Source of the DNA: Burkholderia sp. USMB20
Lineage (GTDB): Bacteria; Pseudomonadota; Gammaproteobacteria; Burkholderiales; Burkholderiaceae
Length of the DNA stretch: 64,000 bases
Assembly: GCF_000949135.2 (NCBI RefSeq)
Contig: NZ_JTAN02000002.1
Span: 124,001-188,000 of the forward strand
Direction: 5' to 3'
A program made the position numbers and the translations under genes. This document shows, in pieces, positions 37,090 through 42,012 of the stretch (position 1 is its first letter; every line of letters starts with the position of its first letter). The notes under the pieces were generated by a model that saw only the letters and a program-made list of their open reading frames with translations, was not told the DNA's origin and searched no databases.

Positions 37090-37105
37090 TGGCATCGCCG
37101 ATGCG
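37090..37105 (+). promoter_or_regulatory. Sigma-54-like -24/-12 promoter
   Basis: TGGCATCGCCGATGCG fits the sigma-54 consensus TGGCAC-N5-TTGC: GG at 37091-37092 and GC at 37103-37104 with exactly ten bases between. Transcription would start near 37116, fifty bases before the ATG of the Gly-rich gene. Confidence 0.55.
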
Positions 37106-37165: not shown

Positions 37166-38404
37166 ATGCGCAAAACTCTATTGGCGTCTGCTGCGCTTCT
37201 CGCCTTGGGATGCAGCGGCTACGCAATGGCGAATCCATGCAGCAGCGATACCAGTTCGACATGCAGTCAGAAAGCCGATGACGGATCGAACACTCTCAGC
37301 AACGCAGTCAGCTCAACCCAGACCAGCTCCACCGGGTCCAATGCGAATGAAGTTTCGCCTGGCGCGAGTGTCTACCAGGATTCGTACAACAGCACCAAGA
37401 TCGTCGCGATCAGCAAACTCGACGGGTACGTGAGCAATGTCCAGGTCTGGGGCATCGGCAACAACGCGACCAACTCGGGCAGCGCGGCCGGCGGAAGCGG
37501 CGGCAAGGGCGGCAACGGGTATGGCTACGGCGGCATCGGCGGTAATGGCGGAAGCGGCGGTGCAGGCGGCGCCGGCGGCAAAGGCGGCAGCGCGCATAAC
37601 GGCAGCGCCACGGCGGGCAACGCCAGCAATGGCAGCGCGACGGCCGGCACCGGCAACGGCGGCGGCGGCGGAGCCGGCGGCTCACCTGACGCCAGCGGCG
37701 GGGGCGGCGGCAATGCCACTGCGAGCGGCGGCTCCGGCTCCGGCACGGGCGGCGGCGCGATCGCGGCCTCGGTCGGTGTAGGCGGTTCCGGCAAGGGCAG
37801 CGGCACAGGCTGGGGCGGCGGCACCGGCACAGCCAATCCCGGCTCCGCGTGGGCCAGGAATCATGGCAGCGGAAGCGCGTCGGCATCGGCCGGCAGCGGC
37901 ACCGGCACCGGCACGGGTACCGGCACCGGCTCGGGCAGTGGCTCAGGCGGCGCAGGGTCGGCGGGTACGTCGACCGCTTCGGGCGGATCGGGCGCAGGCA
38001 TCGGCGGCGCGGGTGCGGCCGCGGCGGCACCGGCGCGCGCGGCGGCCACGGCGGGCAACGGCGGTGCCGGCGGCGCGGGCACGGCGGCGGCGCGACGAAC
38101 GGCGGCGCGACGACGACGGCCAGCAACGGCGGCGCAACCGCGGGTAGCGGCGCGGTGGGCGCGATGGCGGCGCGGCGGCGCAGGCGGCACCGGCAACGGC
38201 GGTGTCGGTAACGGCGCGGTCGGCGGCGCGGGTGGCGCAGGCGGAGCCAATGCGGTCAACGCGGGGACGTTCAACATGTCCAACGCGATGGCGAGTGTCG
38301 GCCAGACCGCCGCGGGCATCATGGTCGCCAACCAGAACAGCGGCATGGCGTCGTTCGTTCAGCAGGCCGTGACCGTGCAGGCGAACCTGTCCGTAGGACG
38401 TTAG
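37166..38404 (+). CDS. Exported Gly-rich repeat protein, probable fibre subunit of a Fap-like system
   Basis: 412 residues. A signal peptide (LLASAALLALGCSGYAMA, cleavage near AMANP) is followed by a Ser/Thr/Asn-rich region to about residue 108, a very long Gly/Ala/Ser/Thr-rich region (109-363), and a C-terminal domain NMSNAMASVGQTAAGIMVAN then QNSGMASFVQQAVTVQANLS. The Asn/Gln-containing hydrophobic end resembles amyloid-repeat segments of Fap subunits. AGGAGGATTTC gives an ideal ribosome binding site. Residues 307-336 are abruptly Arg-rich and look read in the wrong frame; the frame is correct again afterwards. Surface fibre function is inferred from the neighbours. Confidence 0.75.
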   Translation: MRKTLLASAALLALGCSGYAMANPCSSDTSSTCSQKADDGSNTLSNAVSSTQTSSTGSNANEVSPGASVYQDSYNSTKIVAISKLDGYVSNVQVWGIGNNATNSGSAAGGSGGKGGNGYGYGGIGGNGGSGGAGGAGGKGGSAHNGSATAGNASNGSATAGTGNGGGGGAGGSPDASGGGGGNATASGGSGSGTGGGAIAASVGVGGSGKGSGTGWGGGTGTANPGSAWARNHGSGSASASAGSGTGTGTGTGTGSGSGSGGAGSAGTSTASGGSGAGIGGAGAAAAAPARAAATAGNGGAGGAGTAAARRTAARRRRPATAAQPRVAARWARWRRGGAGGTGNGGVGNGAVGGAGGAGGANAVNAGTFNMSNAMASVGQTAAGIMVANQNSGMASFVQQAVTVQANLSVGR

Positions 38405-38634
38405 CCGGCCGGCCGGTCCTGGCGAGCCGGATGCATTGACGCGGGCGCAGGCGAGCCCGCGACTTGCGTTCCATCGCCGATGGACAGGACCGCCGGCGAG
38501 GGCGGGATGGCCGAACGGCCGTCTCGCTCTCGTTGGCGCAGGCCGGGCTGATTTCCGTCGATCGACGGTCACGCGGATTCCGCTCCCTGTGCGCCGGTTT
38601 CGAGCCGGCTCGCGCAGGGACCAAGGAGACAGCC

Positions 38635-39123
38635 ATGCGAATCCGAACGGCACTTTTGCTGGTGATATTGCCTGCGGCGCTGCTGCCGGGCCTGACGGCC
38701 CATGCCACGGCTGACGGGTCGCGAACCGTTGCGGCGGAGGCCACCGCCGATGTTGCGCCGGCAGCCGCAGCTTCCCCACCCGCCGCGCGCGCGGATTACG
38801 CCGATCCGGCCGCGGCCGTCGCGCCCCCTGCGGCAGCCATACCCGCTGCGACCGACACCGCGACCGCTCAAGCGGGCAGCTTCGGTGTCGCGATGACGCC
38901 TGACCAGCTCGACGAGCATCGGGGCGGCGATGCGCTGATCGGCCAAAACTATCTGACCGGCGCGGTGACCGACAACGTGGCGAACCGCGTGTCGACCGGC
39001 TCGAATTCGATCGCCGACGGCTCGTTCGCCAATGCGAGCGGCCTGCCTACGGTCATCCAGAATACCGGCGCCAACGTGCTGATTCAGAACGCGACGGTGC
39101 TCAACGTGCGCTTCGGGAACTGA
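38635..39123 (+). CDS. Small exported protein with double-glycine-like motif, Fap-like locus
   Basis: 162 residues. A signal peptide (TALLLVILPAALLPGLTAHA) is followed by an Ala/Pro-rich segment, then FGVAMTPDQLDEHRGGDALI at about residue 85-104, then a C-terminal domain ending in ASGLPTVIQNTGANVLIQNA and NVRFGN. The Asn-rich hydrophobic C-terminus is like minor subunits of functional amyloid systems. The motif TPDQLDEHRGG resembles the leader signal cut by C39 peptidases, and the C39 peptidase gene starts 3 bp downstream. GGAGA precedes the ATG. No exact family is recognised. Confidence 0.75.
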   Translation: MRIRTALLLVILPAALLPGLTAHATADGSRTVAAEATADVAPAAAASPPAARADYADPAAAVAPPAAAIPAATDTATAQAGSFGVAMTPDQLDEHRGGDALIGQNYLTGAVTDNVANRVSTGSNSIADGSFANASGLPTVIQNTGANVLIQNATVLNVRFGN

Positions 39124-39126
39124 GCG

Positions 39127-39819
39127 ATGAGACAGGTTGCCGCAGCATGCATCGCGGCGCTCGCTTACGCGCTGTCCGTCCCGATTGCATGGGCGGACGA
39201 GATGACGGTCGTCGATCCGGCGGGCGCAGGCTATGCGATGCACGTCACGAGTCTCAAGGAGGCCCGCTTCAAGCGCACCGTCAAGCAGCAATTCGATTTC
39301 AGTTGCGGGTCGGCTGCCGTCGCGACGCTGCTGACTTATCAGTATGACTATCCGATGACCGAGCAGACCGCCTTCGCCCAGATGTGGGAGAACGGCAATC
39401 AGGAGAAGATTCGCCAGCAGGGCTTCTCGCTGCTCGACATCCGGCGGTTTCTCGACGCGCACGGCTTCGTCGCGGACGGCTTCGAGCTGCCGTTGCAGAC
39501 GCTCGCCAGGACGCACACGCCGGCGATCGTGTTGATCACCGAGCACGGCTATCACCATTTCGTGGTCGTGAAGGGGCTGCGTGACGGGCGTGTGCTCGTC
39601 GGCGATCCTGCTACCGGCACGCGCCCGATGTCGCTGGCGAGCTTCGAGCAGAAGTGGGAAGACCATGTGATTTTCGTGATTCACAACCGGCCCGAGCTGG
39701 CGGTGTTCAACGACCCGCGTGACTGGCGCGTCGCGCCCAGCGCGCCGCTCTACACCGGTATCGCGCGCGACGGCCTGTACAACGTCGTGATGCCGAAGCA
39801 CGGCCCGAACGACTTTTGA
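39127..39819 (+). CDS. Periplasmic C39-family cysteine peptidase (FapD-like)
   Basis: 230 residues with a signal peptide (AACIAALAYALSVPIAWA). The C39 catalytic set is complete: the Gln and Cys in KQQFDFSCGSAAVATLL, His in HGYHHFVVVKG and Asp in VLVGDPATG. Unlike the bacteriocin-exporter C39 domains, it is not fused to an ABC transporter and is exported. This is the architecture of FapD, which is required for fibre formation in Pseudomonas. It lies between genes for two exported proteins, its likely substrates. Confidence 0.9.
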   Translation: MRQVAAACIAALAYALSVPIAWADEMTVVDPAGAGYAMHVTSLKEARFKRTVKQQFDFSCGSAAVATLLTYQYDYPMTEQTAFAQMWENGNQEKIRQQGFSLLDIRRFLDAHGFVADGFELPLQTLARTHTPAIVLITEHGYHHFVVVKGLRDGRVLVGDPATGTRPMSLASFEQKWEDHVIFVIHNRPELAVFNDPRDWRVAPSAPLYTGIARDGLYNVVMPKHGPNDF

Positions 39820-39827
39820 GGACCGTC

Positions 39828-40538
39828 ATGAGATCCCAGACCAGGTACATCGCCGGCATCGCCGTGATGGTGTGCGGCGGGGTGACGTCCGTGAGTGCGG
39901 CGGCGATGCAGGACGACGCGCTGGCCGCGGCCGACGCGCCGGTCGCGCAGGCGAGCGGCATCGTCGAGGCATCCGCCGCGAACGCGGGCGCCGATATGGC
40001 GCCTGTGGAGTCGCGGGCCGGCGAGGTGCCGATCCTGCGTGCCGCGCCGCTCGCGATGGCGGAGTGTGCGGCAGGGCCGCCGGCCGTGGAGCCGGGCGGC
40101 GCGCAGGAACGGAACTGGCCGGCAGCCGGCGCGATCGCGCTCAGCGACGCGCGCCTCGATGCGATGCGCGGCGGCTTCGATATGCCGAGCGGTCTGAAGG
40201 TTTCGTTCGGCGTGTCGCGTGTCGCGTTCGTGAACGGCAATCTGGTCACGACGACCAGCTTCAACATCCCGGACATCAGTCATATCACCGCGCAACAGGC
40301 GCAGGCGCTGGCGGCCGCGAACGCGGGCGCGCTGATCCAGGTCGGCGCCGGCAACGCCGCGCAGCCCGCCGCGCTGCCGGCGCTGACCGGCGCGGTAATC
40401 CAGAACACGTTGAACAACCAGCAAATCCAGGCGGTGACGACGATCAACACGACCGTCAACACACTGTCGACGTTCAAGAACCTGAACGTGATGTCGACGC
40501 TGAACAATGCGTTGATCGGCGTGTTGCCGGGGCGATGA
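39828..40538 (+). CDS. Exported protein with double-glycine-like motif, Fap-like locus
   Basis: 236 residues. The N-terminus has a signal peptide (YIAGIAVMVCGGVTSVSA). A long Ala-rich stretch leads to IALSDARLDAMRGGFDMPSG at about residue 105-124, a close match to the LSxxELxxIxGG double-glycine leader signal. The C-terminal domain is hydrophobic and rich in Asn/Gln/Thr (VIQNTLNNQQIQAVTTINTT). The ATG at 39828 has GAGGA upstream; a TTG four codons earlier would overlap the peptidase gene. It is the last gene of the plus-strand unit. Confidence 0.75.
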   Translation: MRSQTRYIAGIAVMVCGGVTSVSAAAMQDDALAAADAPVAQASGIVEASAANAGADMAPVESRAGEVPILRAAPLAMAECAAGPPAVEPGGAQERNWPAAGAIALSDARLDAMRGGFDMPSGLKVSFGVSRVAFVNGNLVTTTSFNIPDISHITAQQAQALAAANAGALIQVGAGNAAQPAALPALTGAVIQNTLNNQQIQAVTTINTTVNTLSTFKNLNVMSTLNNALIGVLPGR

Positions 40539-40589
40539 AGGCTCGGTGAGCGACCGATGAATGGCAGATGAGCGCGTAGTGGCGCGCCG

Positions 40590-40614
40590 GGGCCCGCGTG
40601 CGGCGCGCGGGCCC
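40590..40614. terminator. Bidirectional hairpin between convergent Fap-like genes
   Basis: GGGCCCGCG (40590-40598) and CGCGGGCCC (40606-40614) form a perfect 9-bp stem with a 7-base loop in the 97-bp gap between the two converging genes. No T-run follows on either side. Confidence 0.5.
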
Positions 40615-40635
40615 GCCGCACGCGCACGCGGACAA

Positions 40636-42012
40636 TCAGAATGCAATCGGCACGCGCAGCGTCATGACCACGTCCGGCGTGTCGCGTGTGAGGCCGGCGC
40701 CGATCGAGAGATTCAGCGTGGTCTTCGGCGACAACCGGTACGAGTAACCGAGGAGCAGTGAGCCGAGGATCACGCGCACCGAACTGGGTACCGTCTGGCC
40801 GTTCTGTTTCGTCGGCAGTACGATGCTCTGGTCGTAGCCGAGGCTCACCGACGCTTTCTCGTTCAGCGCGAGGCCCATGCCGATATTGAAACCCCAGATG
40901 TCGCCGGGCTGCACCTTGCCGATGAAGTCCTTCTGTCCATCGCGAATCGTGAGGCTGAGATTGTCGCGGCTGAAGCTGTGCAGATAGCTCAGGTTGCCGA
41001 AGAACACCACCGGGTCGGACGGAAAGAGCCACGTGAGGCCAGGCTGGATCGCGTAGAAACCGGAGCCCGTCGGCTGCTCGAGCGGCAGGCCGGTGCCGGT
41101 GGCATTGCCGACGCAGCGCGTGACGCAGTCGGTGACGACGTCGAACGGGCTCTTGCCGGTGGCGCTCTTGAAGCGCAGCCAGCCGATGTAATAGAACTTG
41201 TCGGGGCCGCCGGTATTGAACTGGTAGCGCAGCGTCATTTCGACGTCGCCGAGGCCTTTGCCGTGGCTGTTGAACGCGTTGTCCTGGGCGGTACCGGTGA
41301 AGATCTCGCGGCTGATCGTGTCGTTCGTCGAGTACACATAGGGGACGCGGACTTCGACTTCCATCCGGTTGGTGATCCCGTAGCGCACCGCGACCGCGCC
41401 CGTCAGCGTGGTCGTCTTGACTTCCCGCACGTCGACCAGGCCGATCAGCAGCGCCGGGATGATCGTGTAGCCGACGAGTGCGACGCGGTTCGACGACGAA
41501 TAGCTGAACTGGAACGACGGCTCGACGACGAACTTGTTCTTCGGTGTCAGCACGCCGGGCTGATCGAAGATCGGCGCGACAGGCGGCGGTGCGGTTTCCG
41601 CCACCGGCGCCTGGCCGACCGGCCGGCTCGGCGGCGCGGCGGACCCGGCCGAAGATTGCACGTTGCCGGGGGCGTTGCCGGCCGCGCCGGGCGCGCTGCC
41701 CGGGGAGCCGGTATCGGCCTGCGTCGCCGCGTCGCCGGAGCCGCCGGCATCGCCGGTGCCCGCGCCACGCCGGGCCGCGAGTTCGCGGTTGTCCAGCGCC
41801 CGGCTCAGGCGCGAGAGATTGGCTTCCTCGTCGGCCAGTTTGCGCTTGAGTGCACTCAGTTCCTGCAGATGGCGATCGACTTCGTGGCGCAGCGCGGAAA
41901 TGTTCTCCTGCGTCGACTGGGCGTCCAGCGACTGCGCTTGCGCCTGGGCCTGAAAGAGCAGCACGCTTGCATAGCTGATGGCATGGATGCAGCGAAATGG
42001 CATGCGCTTCAC
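40636..42012 (-). CDS. Outer-membrane transporter with coiled-coil and beta-barrel (FapF-like)
   Basis: 458 residues. The GTG at 42012 has GGAGA six bases ahead and gives a signal peptide (RCIHAISYASVLLFQAQAQA). Residues 28-80 form a coiled coil with heptad Leu/Ile (ISALRHEVDRHLQELSALKR then KLADEEANLSRLSRALDN). A Gly/Ala/Pro linker (about 85-155) follows, then a C-terminal domain of alternating strands ending in phenylalanine (MTLRVPIAF), typical of an outer-membrane barrel. Coiled coil, linker and barrel in this order are the plan of FapF, the fibre-subunit exporter. It converges on the subunit/peptidase genes and has its own promoter region. Confidence 0.8.
   Translation of the reverse strand: MKRMPFRCIHAISYASVLLFQAQAQAQSLDAQSTQENISALRHEVDRHLQELSALKRKLADEEANLSRLSRALDNRELAARRGAGTGDAGGSGDAATQADTGSPGSAPGAAGNAPGNVQSSAGSAAPPSRPVGQAPVAETAPPPVAPIFDQPGVLTPKNKFVVEPSFQFSYSSSNRVALVGYTIIPALLIGLVDVREVKTTTLTGAVAVRYGITNRMEVEVRVPYVYSTNDTISREIFTGTAQDNAFNSHGKGLGDVEMTLRYQFNTGGPDKFYYIGWLRFKSATGKSPFDVVTDCVTRCVGNATGTGLPLEQPTGSGFYAIQPGLTWLFPSDPVVFFGNLSYLHSFSRDNLSLTIRDGQKDFIGKVQPGDIWGFNIGMGLALNEKASVSLGYDQSIVLPTKQNGQTVPSSVRVILGSLLLGYSYRLSPKTTLNLSIGAGLTRDTPDVVMTLRVPIAF

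Follow-up and report, generated by a model that had tools for sequence, protein, structure and literature searches.

A block of five genes in Burkholderia sp. USMB20 probably constitutes a fiber-secretion locus of a sister family of the Fap functional amyloid system, in which a C39 peptidase would cut double-glycine leaders, a Gly-rich protein (GR) would form the main fiber, and a sigma-54 promoter would drive transcription. The block lies at positions 37,166 to 42,012 of the window, by which we mean the whole 64,000-nucleotide (nt) stretch analyzed here (contig NZ_JTAN02000002.1, positions 124,001 to 188,000 of the forward strand), and encodes GR, two small exported proteins (S1 and S2), the C39 peptidase, and an outer membrane protein (OMP). 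An earlier note made from the DNA letters had called this block a distant Fap-type fiber system; the five open reading frames (ORFs) it described are all present, best matches to FapD and FapF together with co-occurrence in other genomes support the designation, and we infer the fiber and amyloid part of it. New beyond that reading are the double-glycine motifs of S1 and S2 and the sigma-54-type site upstream of GR. The features are as follows, with positions in the window:

37090..37104, +, sigma-54-type promoter-like site TGGCATCGCCGATGC, 61 nt ahead of the GR start codon
37166..38404, +, ORF of GR, an exported Gly-rich fiber-subunit candidate of 412 amino acids (aa)
38017..38180 (approximate), +, GR stretch of about 55 codons, shifted in frame when compared with related copies
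38258..38401, +, repeat-like unit at the GR C terminus (AGIMVANQNSGMASFVQQAVTVQANL), which hhalign aligns with the S1 C terminus
38635..39123, +, ORF of S1, a small exported protein of 162 aa with the leader motif and one repeat-like unit
38893..38928, +, double-glycine leader motif of S1 (M-12, L-7, H-4, R-3, G-2, G-1)
39127..39819, +, C39 peptidase with signal peptide, 230 aa, FapD/FilB superfamily (C60, H144, D160)
39828..40538, +, ORF of S2, an exported FapE-like protein of 236 aa counted from the ATG at 39828
40140..40175, +, double-glycine leader motif of S2, LSDARLDAMRGG (L-12, L-7, M-4, R-3, G-2, G-1)
40636..42012, -, OMP, a FapF-like outer membrane pore of 458 aa with coiled coil and barrel, convergent with the others
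41761..41796, -, motif variant LDNRELAARRGA, located in the OMP linker where the coiled coil ends

Leader motifs in the small exported proteins and the pore

All five proteins have signal-peptide-like N termini as judged by eye, and the leader motif lies further downstream in S1 and S2. To follow it across genomes, we used 81 loci, namely the window and the best 80 of at least 560 C39-protein relatives found among at least 595 candidate stretches when GTDB species genomes were scanned. S1 and S2 models made purely from the sequence downstream of the motif located one copy of each protein in 81 of 81 loci; the motif was sought in a span of 100 residues around the start of each model match, with residue shuffles of these stretches as controls. 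An L-x4-GG pattern is present in 81/81 S1 and 79/81 S2 proteins (21% and 20% of shuffles, respectively), and the same pattern with a hydrophobic residue at -12 in 77/81 and 76/81 (5.3% and 5.7% of shuffles); the S2 exceptions to L-x4-GG are locus L108, which reads R-A-G, and L116, where the match is doubtful. Arg occupies position -3 in all 79 S2 proteins and in 58 of the 81 S1 proteins, and the residue following GG is Phe or Tyr in 76 of 79 S2 proteins. A strict form of the motif (hydrophobic residue at -12, Leu at -7, Arg or Ser at -3, and GG) was recovered in 76/81 S1 and 76/81 S2 proteins and in none of 74 GR proteins (a relaxed form occurs in 3), 81 C39 peptidases, and 184 other ORFs of the same loci.

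The double-glycine leaders of C39 peptidase substrates follow a consensus of hydrophobic residues at -12 and -4, Leu at -7, and Gly at -2 and -1. The window S2 fits this spacing in full (-12, -7, -4, and GG), and the window S1 has a nonhydrophobic His at -4. From its sequence, the motif of S1 and S2 suggests a cutting signal for the cluster's own C39 protease. A related motif in the OMP linker (hydrophobic residue at -12, Leu at -7, Arg at -3, Gly or Ala at -2, and Gly, Ala, or Thr at -1) occurs in 60 of 79 OMPs, counted with the window included and L115 and L136 left out, and in 1.2% of shuffles. The OMP of L163, encoded downstream of the C39 gene, has a linker with two tandem motif-like copies, SQLDRLRGTG and SLDVLRGTGG.

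The motif is also found in canonical Fap loci, where the ORF at the FapE position bears it in 15 of 15 canonical-type loci scanned (L043 to L045 and L167 to L178), with the endings RGR and RGK, or TGK in Burkholderia and L178. Two of these 15 proteins exceed the NCBIfam FapE cutoff of 250 (345 and 337 bits) and hold LKDSEMAELRGR and LKDAEMADLRGR, in which the motif ends at precursor residue 40 and is followed by YVMPG; the Burkholderia FapE of L043 scores 40 bits against this model, under the cutoff. At the Pseudomonas-like loci L167 to L170, FapE was the only plausible exported ORF flagged by a crude scan for a signal peptide plus motif, its two other flags falling within a C39 ORF and within an unrelated ORF. 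S2 is the probable counterpart of FapE.

The C39 tree has 71 rows, of which 49 are separated from 22 canonical rows by a branch with 100/100 support, and the S2/FapE site reads GG in 47/47 read rows on one side and GR or GK in 21/21 read rows on the other. The site labels were read with a pattern of Arg or Thr at -3 and Gly, Arg, or Lys at -1, by which L056, L108, and L154 were not read; the unread rows comprise two on the GG side (L056, SVGR; L108, RAG) and one canonical row. The printed label strings of L139 and L161 are off the real site, and the real sites are of the same class (GR and GG). The tree took every third locus of L057 to L136 (27 of 80) and left out two exact duplicates as well as L052, L055, L147, and L160, in which the C39 pattern was not found. 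The division between GG and GR/GK is at best one historical switch.

A 2017 study of Fap (PMC5557850) reports N-terminal processing of FapE and a requirement for the FapD active-site Cys in the secretion of FapC; it treats FapE as a likely and FapF as a possible FapD target, describes the Fap proteins as having no canonical C39 sequences, and considers GG/GA motifs in both of these proposed targets as candidate sites. A cut near FapE residue 40 fits the missing N terminus, and residues 41 to 70 are not explained by it alone. Canonical fap loci from Burkholderia and from a family member encode one more small exported protein upstream (L043:3431-3946, L044:11641-12159, L045:12064-12582, and L178:9260-9901), which bears the same leader motif (e.g., LDEETLGQQRGR and LDDQVLSRQRGG) and is a candidate second FapD substrate. 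A canonical-type FapF of genome G128 (L177:8043-9497) has the motif LAPDDLVTMRGR at about residue 107.

Family assignment and recurrence in other genomes

The C39 protein matches Pfam Peptidase_C39 (E value of 6.6e-20), and its best NCBIfam match is FapD (NF058616; 130 bits; E value of 7.7e-38; cutoff of 330 not reached), with FilB at 119.4 bits (cutoff of 475 not reached). For the OMP, the best NCBIfam match is FapF (NF058560; 143.6 bits; E value of 7.5e-42; cutoff of 700 not reached), FilC scores 55.5 bits (cutoff of 630 not reached), and the best PDB sequence match is again FapF (E value of 3e-28). An AlphaFold model of the OMP (predicted local distance difference test [pLDDT], 71; predicted template modeling [TM] score, 0.58) has a helix at residues 31 to 83 and then strands from residue 161, and its 18 best PDB fold matches are all FapF chains, with target TM scores of 0.72 to 0.81. 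Residues Q54, C60, H144, and D160 of the C39 protein are unchanged throughout an 11-sequence alignment. The C39 peptidase with complete catalytic residues and the coiled-coil and barrel OMP of the earlier note are thus both upheld, and the profile and structure comparisons it had proposed lead from the C39 protein to FapD and from the OMP to FapF by sequence and fold, not to unrelated families. With a FapF-type fold and an exported, catalytically complete C39 peptidase encoded nearby, the locus belongs to the Fap-like superfamily. On sequence grounds, the C39 protein and the OMP represent a FapD- and FapF-related sister family and not Fap itself, because the equivalog cutoffs of both FapD and FapF are missed. 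GR has no Pfam or NCBIfam family match, S2 has no Pfam match and merely incidental NCBIfam matches, the window copy of S1 has only incidental matches, and the FilA and FilF models of NCBIfam match none of the five window proteins.

The C39 gene has an OMP relative no more than 5 kb away in 79/80 loci. Of these relatives, 57 are downstream on the strand of the C39 gene, 17 are downstream but convergent, and 5 are upstream and divergent. The OMP match in L115 is weak (1e-26), and L136 has no OMP inside 8 kb. The convergent arrangement is found in Burkholderia, Paraburkholderia, and Ralstonia loci, plus L073 and L117, so the convergent exporter gene described earlier is typical of those three genera but not of most loci (57/80), where it is in tandem on the same strand. 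The commonest gene order is GR-S1-C39-S2-OMP, collinear with fapB/C-D-E-F and present on one strand throughout in Cupriavidus metallidurans CH34; the rearranged gene order that had been claimed was not borne out, the orientation of the OMP gene being the sole departure. Polymorphobacter and Croceicoccus have the same one-strand order as CH34, with fiber candidates that are rich in Asn and Ser, not Gly. By composition and C-terminal pattern, 73 of the 81 loci encode a GR-like C terminus ahead of C39.

In a phylum sample of 398 genomes, with match limits of 1e-15 for C39_FapD, 1e-15 for FapF, and 1e-5 for S2, matches were found in 38, 33, and 10 genomes, respectively. All 33 FapF genomes and all 10 S2 genomes fall within the 38 C39_FapD genomes, and the 10 S2 genomes are all FapF-positive as well (an overlap taken from lists). 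The co-occurrence that the earlier note put forward as a test is therefore seen both in the loci (OMP near C39 in 79/80) and in the sampled genomes (FapD- and FapF-type matches in 10/10 S2 genomes). The 40 FapF matches in this sample at an E value of at most 1e-15 form three bands, of at least 343 bits (n = 20), 126 to 175 bits (n = 15), and 70 to 74 bits (n = 5, a band clipped by the E limit); the window OMP, at 143.6 bits, sits in the middle one. Genus-wide, S2 was found in 11 of 65 genomes. Of 25 genomes of the genus, 5 have a window-type C39 and 4 have a canonical-type FapD/FapF pair (that of G015 split across two contigs), with both in G010; G072 and G127 likewise hold both family kinds. 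The closest C39 relatives in the database genomes are from Burkholderia (G013, 96% identity; G024, 95%).

Two further loci stand apart. L173 (G127) has two canonical fapD-fapE copies with small exported motif proteins nearby, in a genome that also has a middle-band FapF, and L186 (L186:5020-7299) is a C39/FapF-like locus of a third kind, in which a Tyr-rich exported protein of 119 aa is encoded upstream. As for the surroundings of the window block, no tRNA genes were found in the 64 kb, and the GC content of the five genes is close to that of their surroundings, the Gly-rich gene excepted, which lends no support to a mobile-island origin.

The fiber candidate, its putative companion subunit, and a promoter-like site

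In a single hhalign comparison, the GR C terminus aligned with the S1 C terminus at a probability of 93 and an E value of 2.9e-7, both sets having been chosen by patterns with a common QN-x-G core. Because their C termini align, GR and S1 appear to have a common unit, as FapC and FapB do. The kinship of this unit to the Fap repeat is suggestive at the sequence level: S1 aligned with canonical FapB/C repeats over 17 columns at a probability of 37.5, and in a set of 40 made up of the window S1 and 39 further S1 proteins, 3 gave weak matches to NCBIfam FapB (NF058557; best E value, 0.0016), the window S1 not among them. None of the three FapC repeats was detected in GR, and its C terminus does not align with canonical repeats, in line with the earlier description of a Gly-rich fiber candidate that differs from FapC. 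GR and S1 each could stand for FapB or FapC. A fiber candidate of Indioceanicola (L056:3726-5474) has about nine GIVTVQQNNGDGN-type repeats by eye, each like the single GR/S1 unit.

The out-of-frame stretch of the window GR has 11 Arg in 30 residues, compared with at most 2 in six Burkholderia loci from four different genomes (L036 is the same contig as L057, and L038 the same as L058). The frameshift is compensated, the C terminus being back in frame, and it is either a sequencing error or a lineage mutation.

The S1, C39, and S2 genes look like a single transcript because the gaps from S1 stop to C39 start and from C39 stop to S2 start are 3 nt and 8 nt. The window holds 6 one-mismatch sigma-54-type sites, under the chance mean of 12.56, and the site ahead of GR therefore proves nothing alone. 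Across loci, a pattern of TGGCA-N6-TTGC (at least 8 of 9 positions, with GG and GC fixed, and no more than 220 nt before the GR start) was matched ahead of GR in 63 of 74 loci and in 1.6% of base shuffles; in some of the 11 loci without a match, the start was miscalled. Ahead of tandem OMP genes, such a site occurs in 1 of 57. A sigma-54 activator is encoded within the fetched stretch in 9 of 80 loci; activators with a VpsR domain adjoin the system in L041, L042, and L053 and adjoin canonical fap in L043, and a pattern search of the window found none. In Pseudomonas fluorescens, fap is controlled by BrfA, an enhancer-binding protein that senses cyclic di-GMP (c-di-GMP) (PMC13101488), and a study of Burkholderia cenocepacia describes BerB as an activator dependent on c-di-GMP and RpoN (PMC5552954). 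A connection of BerB to the GR-S1-C39-S2-OMP locus is a guess.

Proposed mechanism, alternatives, and significance

From homology, co-occurrence, the motif, and the promoter pattern, all of which the sequences support, we infer a course of events for cleavage, export route, polymerization, regulation, and amyloid formation. All five proteins would reach the periplasm by the Sec pathway, after which S1, S2, and probably the OMP would hold a second leader of double-glycine type. This short amphipathic segment has GG as its last two residues (-2 and -1), Leu at -7, a hydrophobic residue at -12, and, in most cases, Arg at -3. The periplasmic C39 peptidase would bind this leader and cut after GG, and the cut S2 (FapE counterpart) and cut S1 (nucleator-like, with one repeat unit) would thereby be licensed for export through the OMP; a cut in the OMP linker may detach the barrel from its coiled coil and thereby close the pore or reset it. 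With an S1-like terminal repeat unit but no strict leader motif, GR would then be exported and polymerize outside as the main fiber, with S1 as its nucleator and S2 as its anchor. Transcription would start from the sigma-54 promoter ahead of GR, perhaps under control of the c-di-GMP type. We put at about even odds a wider version of this scheme, in which exported C39 peptidases (FapD, the window family, and FilB) form a general pathway of Sec first and leader second: leaders in which position -12 is hydrophobic, -7 is Leu, -2 is Gly, and -1 is Gly, Arg, Lys, or Gln would be borne by fiber proteins and even by the pore, their removal in the periplasm would license export or close the pore, and the canonical substrate would be FapE, cut after RGR or RGK near residue 40.

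Several observations weigh against parts of this scheme. The OMP motif is altered or absent in 19 of 79 proteins, mostly as RARG-like variants or for want of the -12 residue, and none was found in the OMPs of L091, L117, and L135; the OMPs of L115, L117, and L135 are seemingly without a coiled coil, and clipping of the OMP therefore cannot be general. Position -1 is not strict in the GG clade, with S1 reading G-K or G-R in L041, L051, L054, L179, L180, and L182, and S2 reading SVGR in L056 on the GG side of the tree and R-A-G in L108. The structural model of S2 is poor (pLDDT of 60), although its predicted helix at residues 107 to 114, of low confidence, does stop just short of GG. When S2 was compared by profile with canonical FapE (14 stretches), 27 columns aligned across the motif at a probability of 42, in an alignment that is not independent, both sets having been precut just before the motif, and the FapE model (NF058559; cutoff of 250) had no match up to an E value of 0.1 in 32 S2 proteins (the window and 31 others). 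The GR C terminus gave no alignment to 35 canonical FapB/C repeats (probability of 0.4), a sigma-54 site was found before none of 22 opposite-strand OMP genes, and no protein with the leader motif was found at L186, a more distant C39/OMP locus. Many of the loci are closely related, so the counts are not independent.

The variable -1 residue, which is Gly, Arg, Lys, or Gln across the superfamily and as such odd for a C39 cut site, would be easier to understand if the motif were a docking tag by which the C39 protein or the OMP coiled coil chaperones S1 and S2, as happens with the inactive C39-like domains of transporters; the motif also lies in the OMP, a protein for which the coiled coil is presumably needed, and this points the same way. 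We regard this as unlikely, since the catalytic residues of the C39 protein are invariant, the active-site Cys of Pseudomonas FapD is required for secretion (PMC5557850), and the S2 motif has the full -12, -7, -4, and GG spacing of C39 cut sites. Members of the C39 family in peptidase-containing ATP-binding cassette (ABC) transporters, which export bacteriocins or ribosomally synthesized and posttranslationally modified peptides, resemble the window protein in their sequence family and in the double-glycine consensus; the window C39, however, is exported and has no fused ABC domain, and its candidate substrates have a signal peptide before the leader. A bacteriocin C39 system was set aside, the window C39 being a free-standing exported protein.

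A pilus- or adhesin-type system nearer Acinetobacter Fil than Fap, making non-amyloid Gly-rich surface material, has in our estimation a small chance of being correct. Fil (FilA, FilB, and FilC) resembles the window family in pairing an exported C39 protein with a FapF-related barrel and in having an exported protein whose leader is related (SMDDAALSAATGQ in FilA), the C39 scores are near-equal (FilB, 119, versus FapD, 130 bits), and GR has no detectable FapC repeats. The OMP, however, is far nearer FapF than FilC (143.6 versus 55.5 bits) and has a coiled coil, FilA and FilF are unmatched, S2 has a FapE-like segment and the gene position of FapE, 3 of 40 S1 proteins have weak FapB matches, and the window OMP falls in the middle of the three FapF score bands. 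FilA-type proteins encoded beside FilB-type C39 peptidases (L185:5194-6487 and L055:4523-6500) have a related leader ending in GQ (MDDSSLSSVTGQ and MDDAALSAATGQ), the L185 protein being called FilA-type by resemblance only.

That the locus is simply a divergent canonical fap operon, with no need of a separate family, we consider very improbable, although the gene order is the same save for the OMP orientation, the FapE-site motif is common to both, and the loss of fapA and separation of fapF are the commonest canonical deviations (PMC3792158). Against it stand the 100/100 split on the C39 tree, FapD and FapF cutoffs missed widely, the three genomes that carry both kinds (G010, G072, and G127), and the absence from GR of the three FapC repeats. 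The probable sister-family locus shares with Pseudomonas fapABCDEF an exported C39, a coiled-coil and barrel pore, a leader-like motif on the FapE-like protein, and a collinear order of subunit, subunit, D, E, and F, but differs in scores far under the cutoffs and a separate C39 clade, in an S2 site that is mostly GG where FapE has GR or GK, and in a leader motif present also in S1 and most OMPs. Its Gly-rich fiber candidate has one repeat-like unit and Fap subunits have three repeats; no FapA was seen in the window-family locus, and the OMP gene is inverted in Burkholderia.

The value of the locus is mainly as a pointer to the recognition site of FapD, a protein essential for amyloid secretion: the sister-family motif points to such a site and matches the one in canonical FapE. 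In a 2025 review (PMC12822426), FapD is "thought to" process FapE and FapF, and screening proceeds via FapB/C repeats near other fap genes; we expect such screening to miss the GR-S1-C39-S2-OMP family. In the portions of the open-license PMC literature available to us, we found no description of this locus type or of a double-glycine site in Fap proteins. The family adds a widespread candidate for a matrix fiber, with at least 560 C39 relatives in Burkholderia, Cupriavidus, Ralstonia, Dyella, Lysobacter, and others. For the Burkholderia cepacia complex, a 2013 survey found no fap genes (PMC3792158), contrary to a 2018 review, which lists B. cepacia among Fap-encoding species (PMC6173800) and also records fapD-fapF pairs in five further phyla (PMC6173800).

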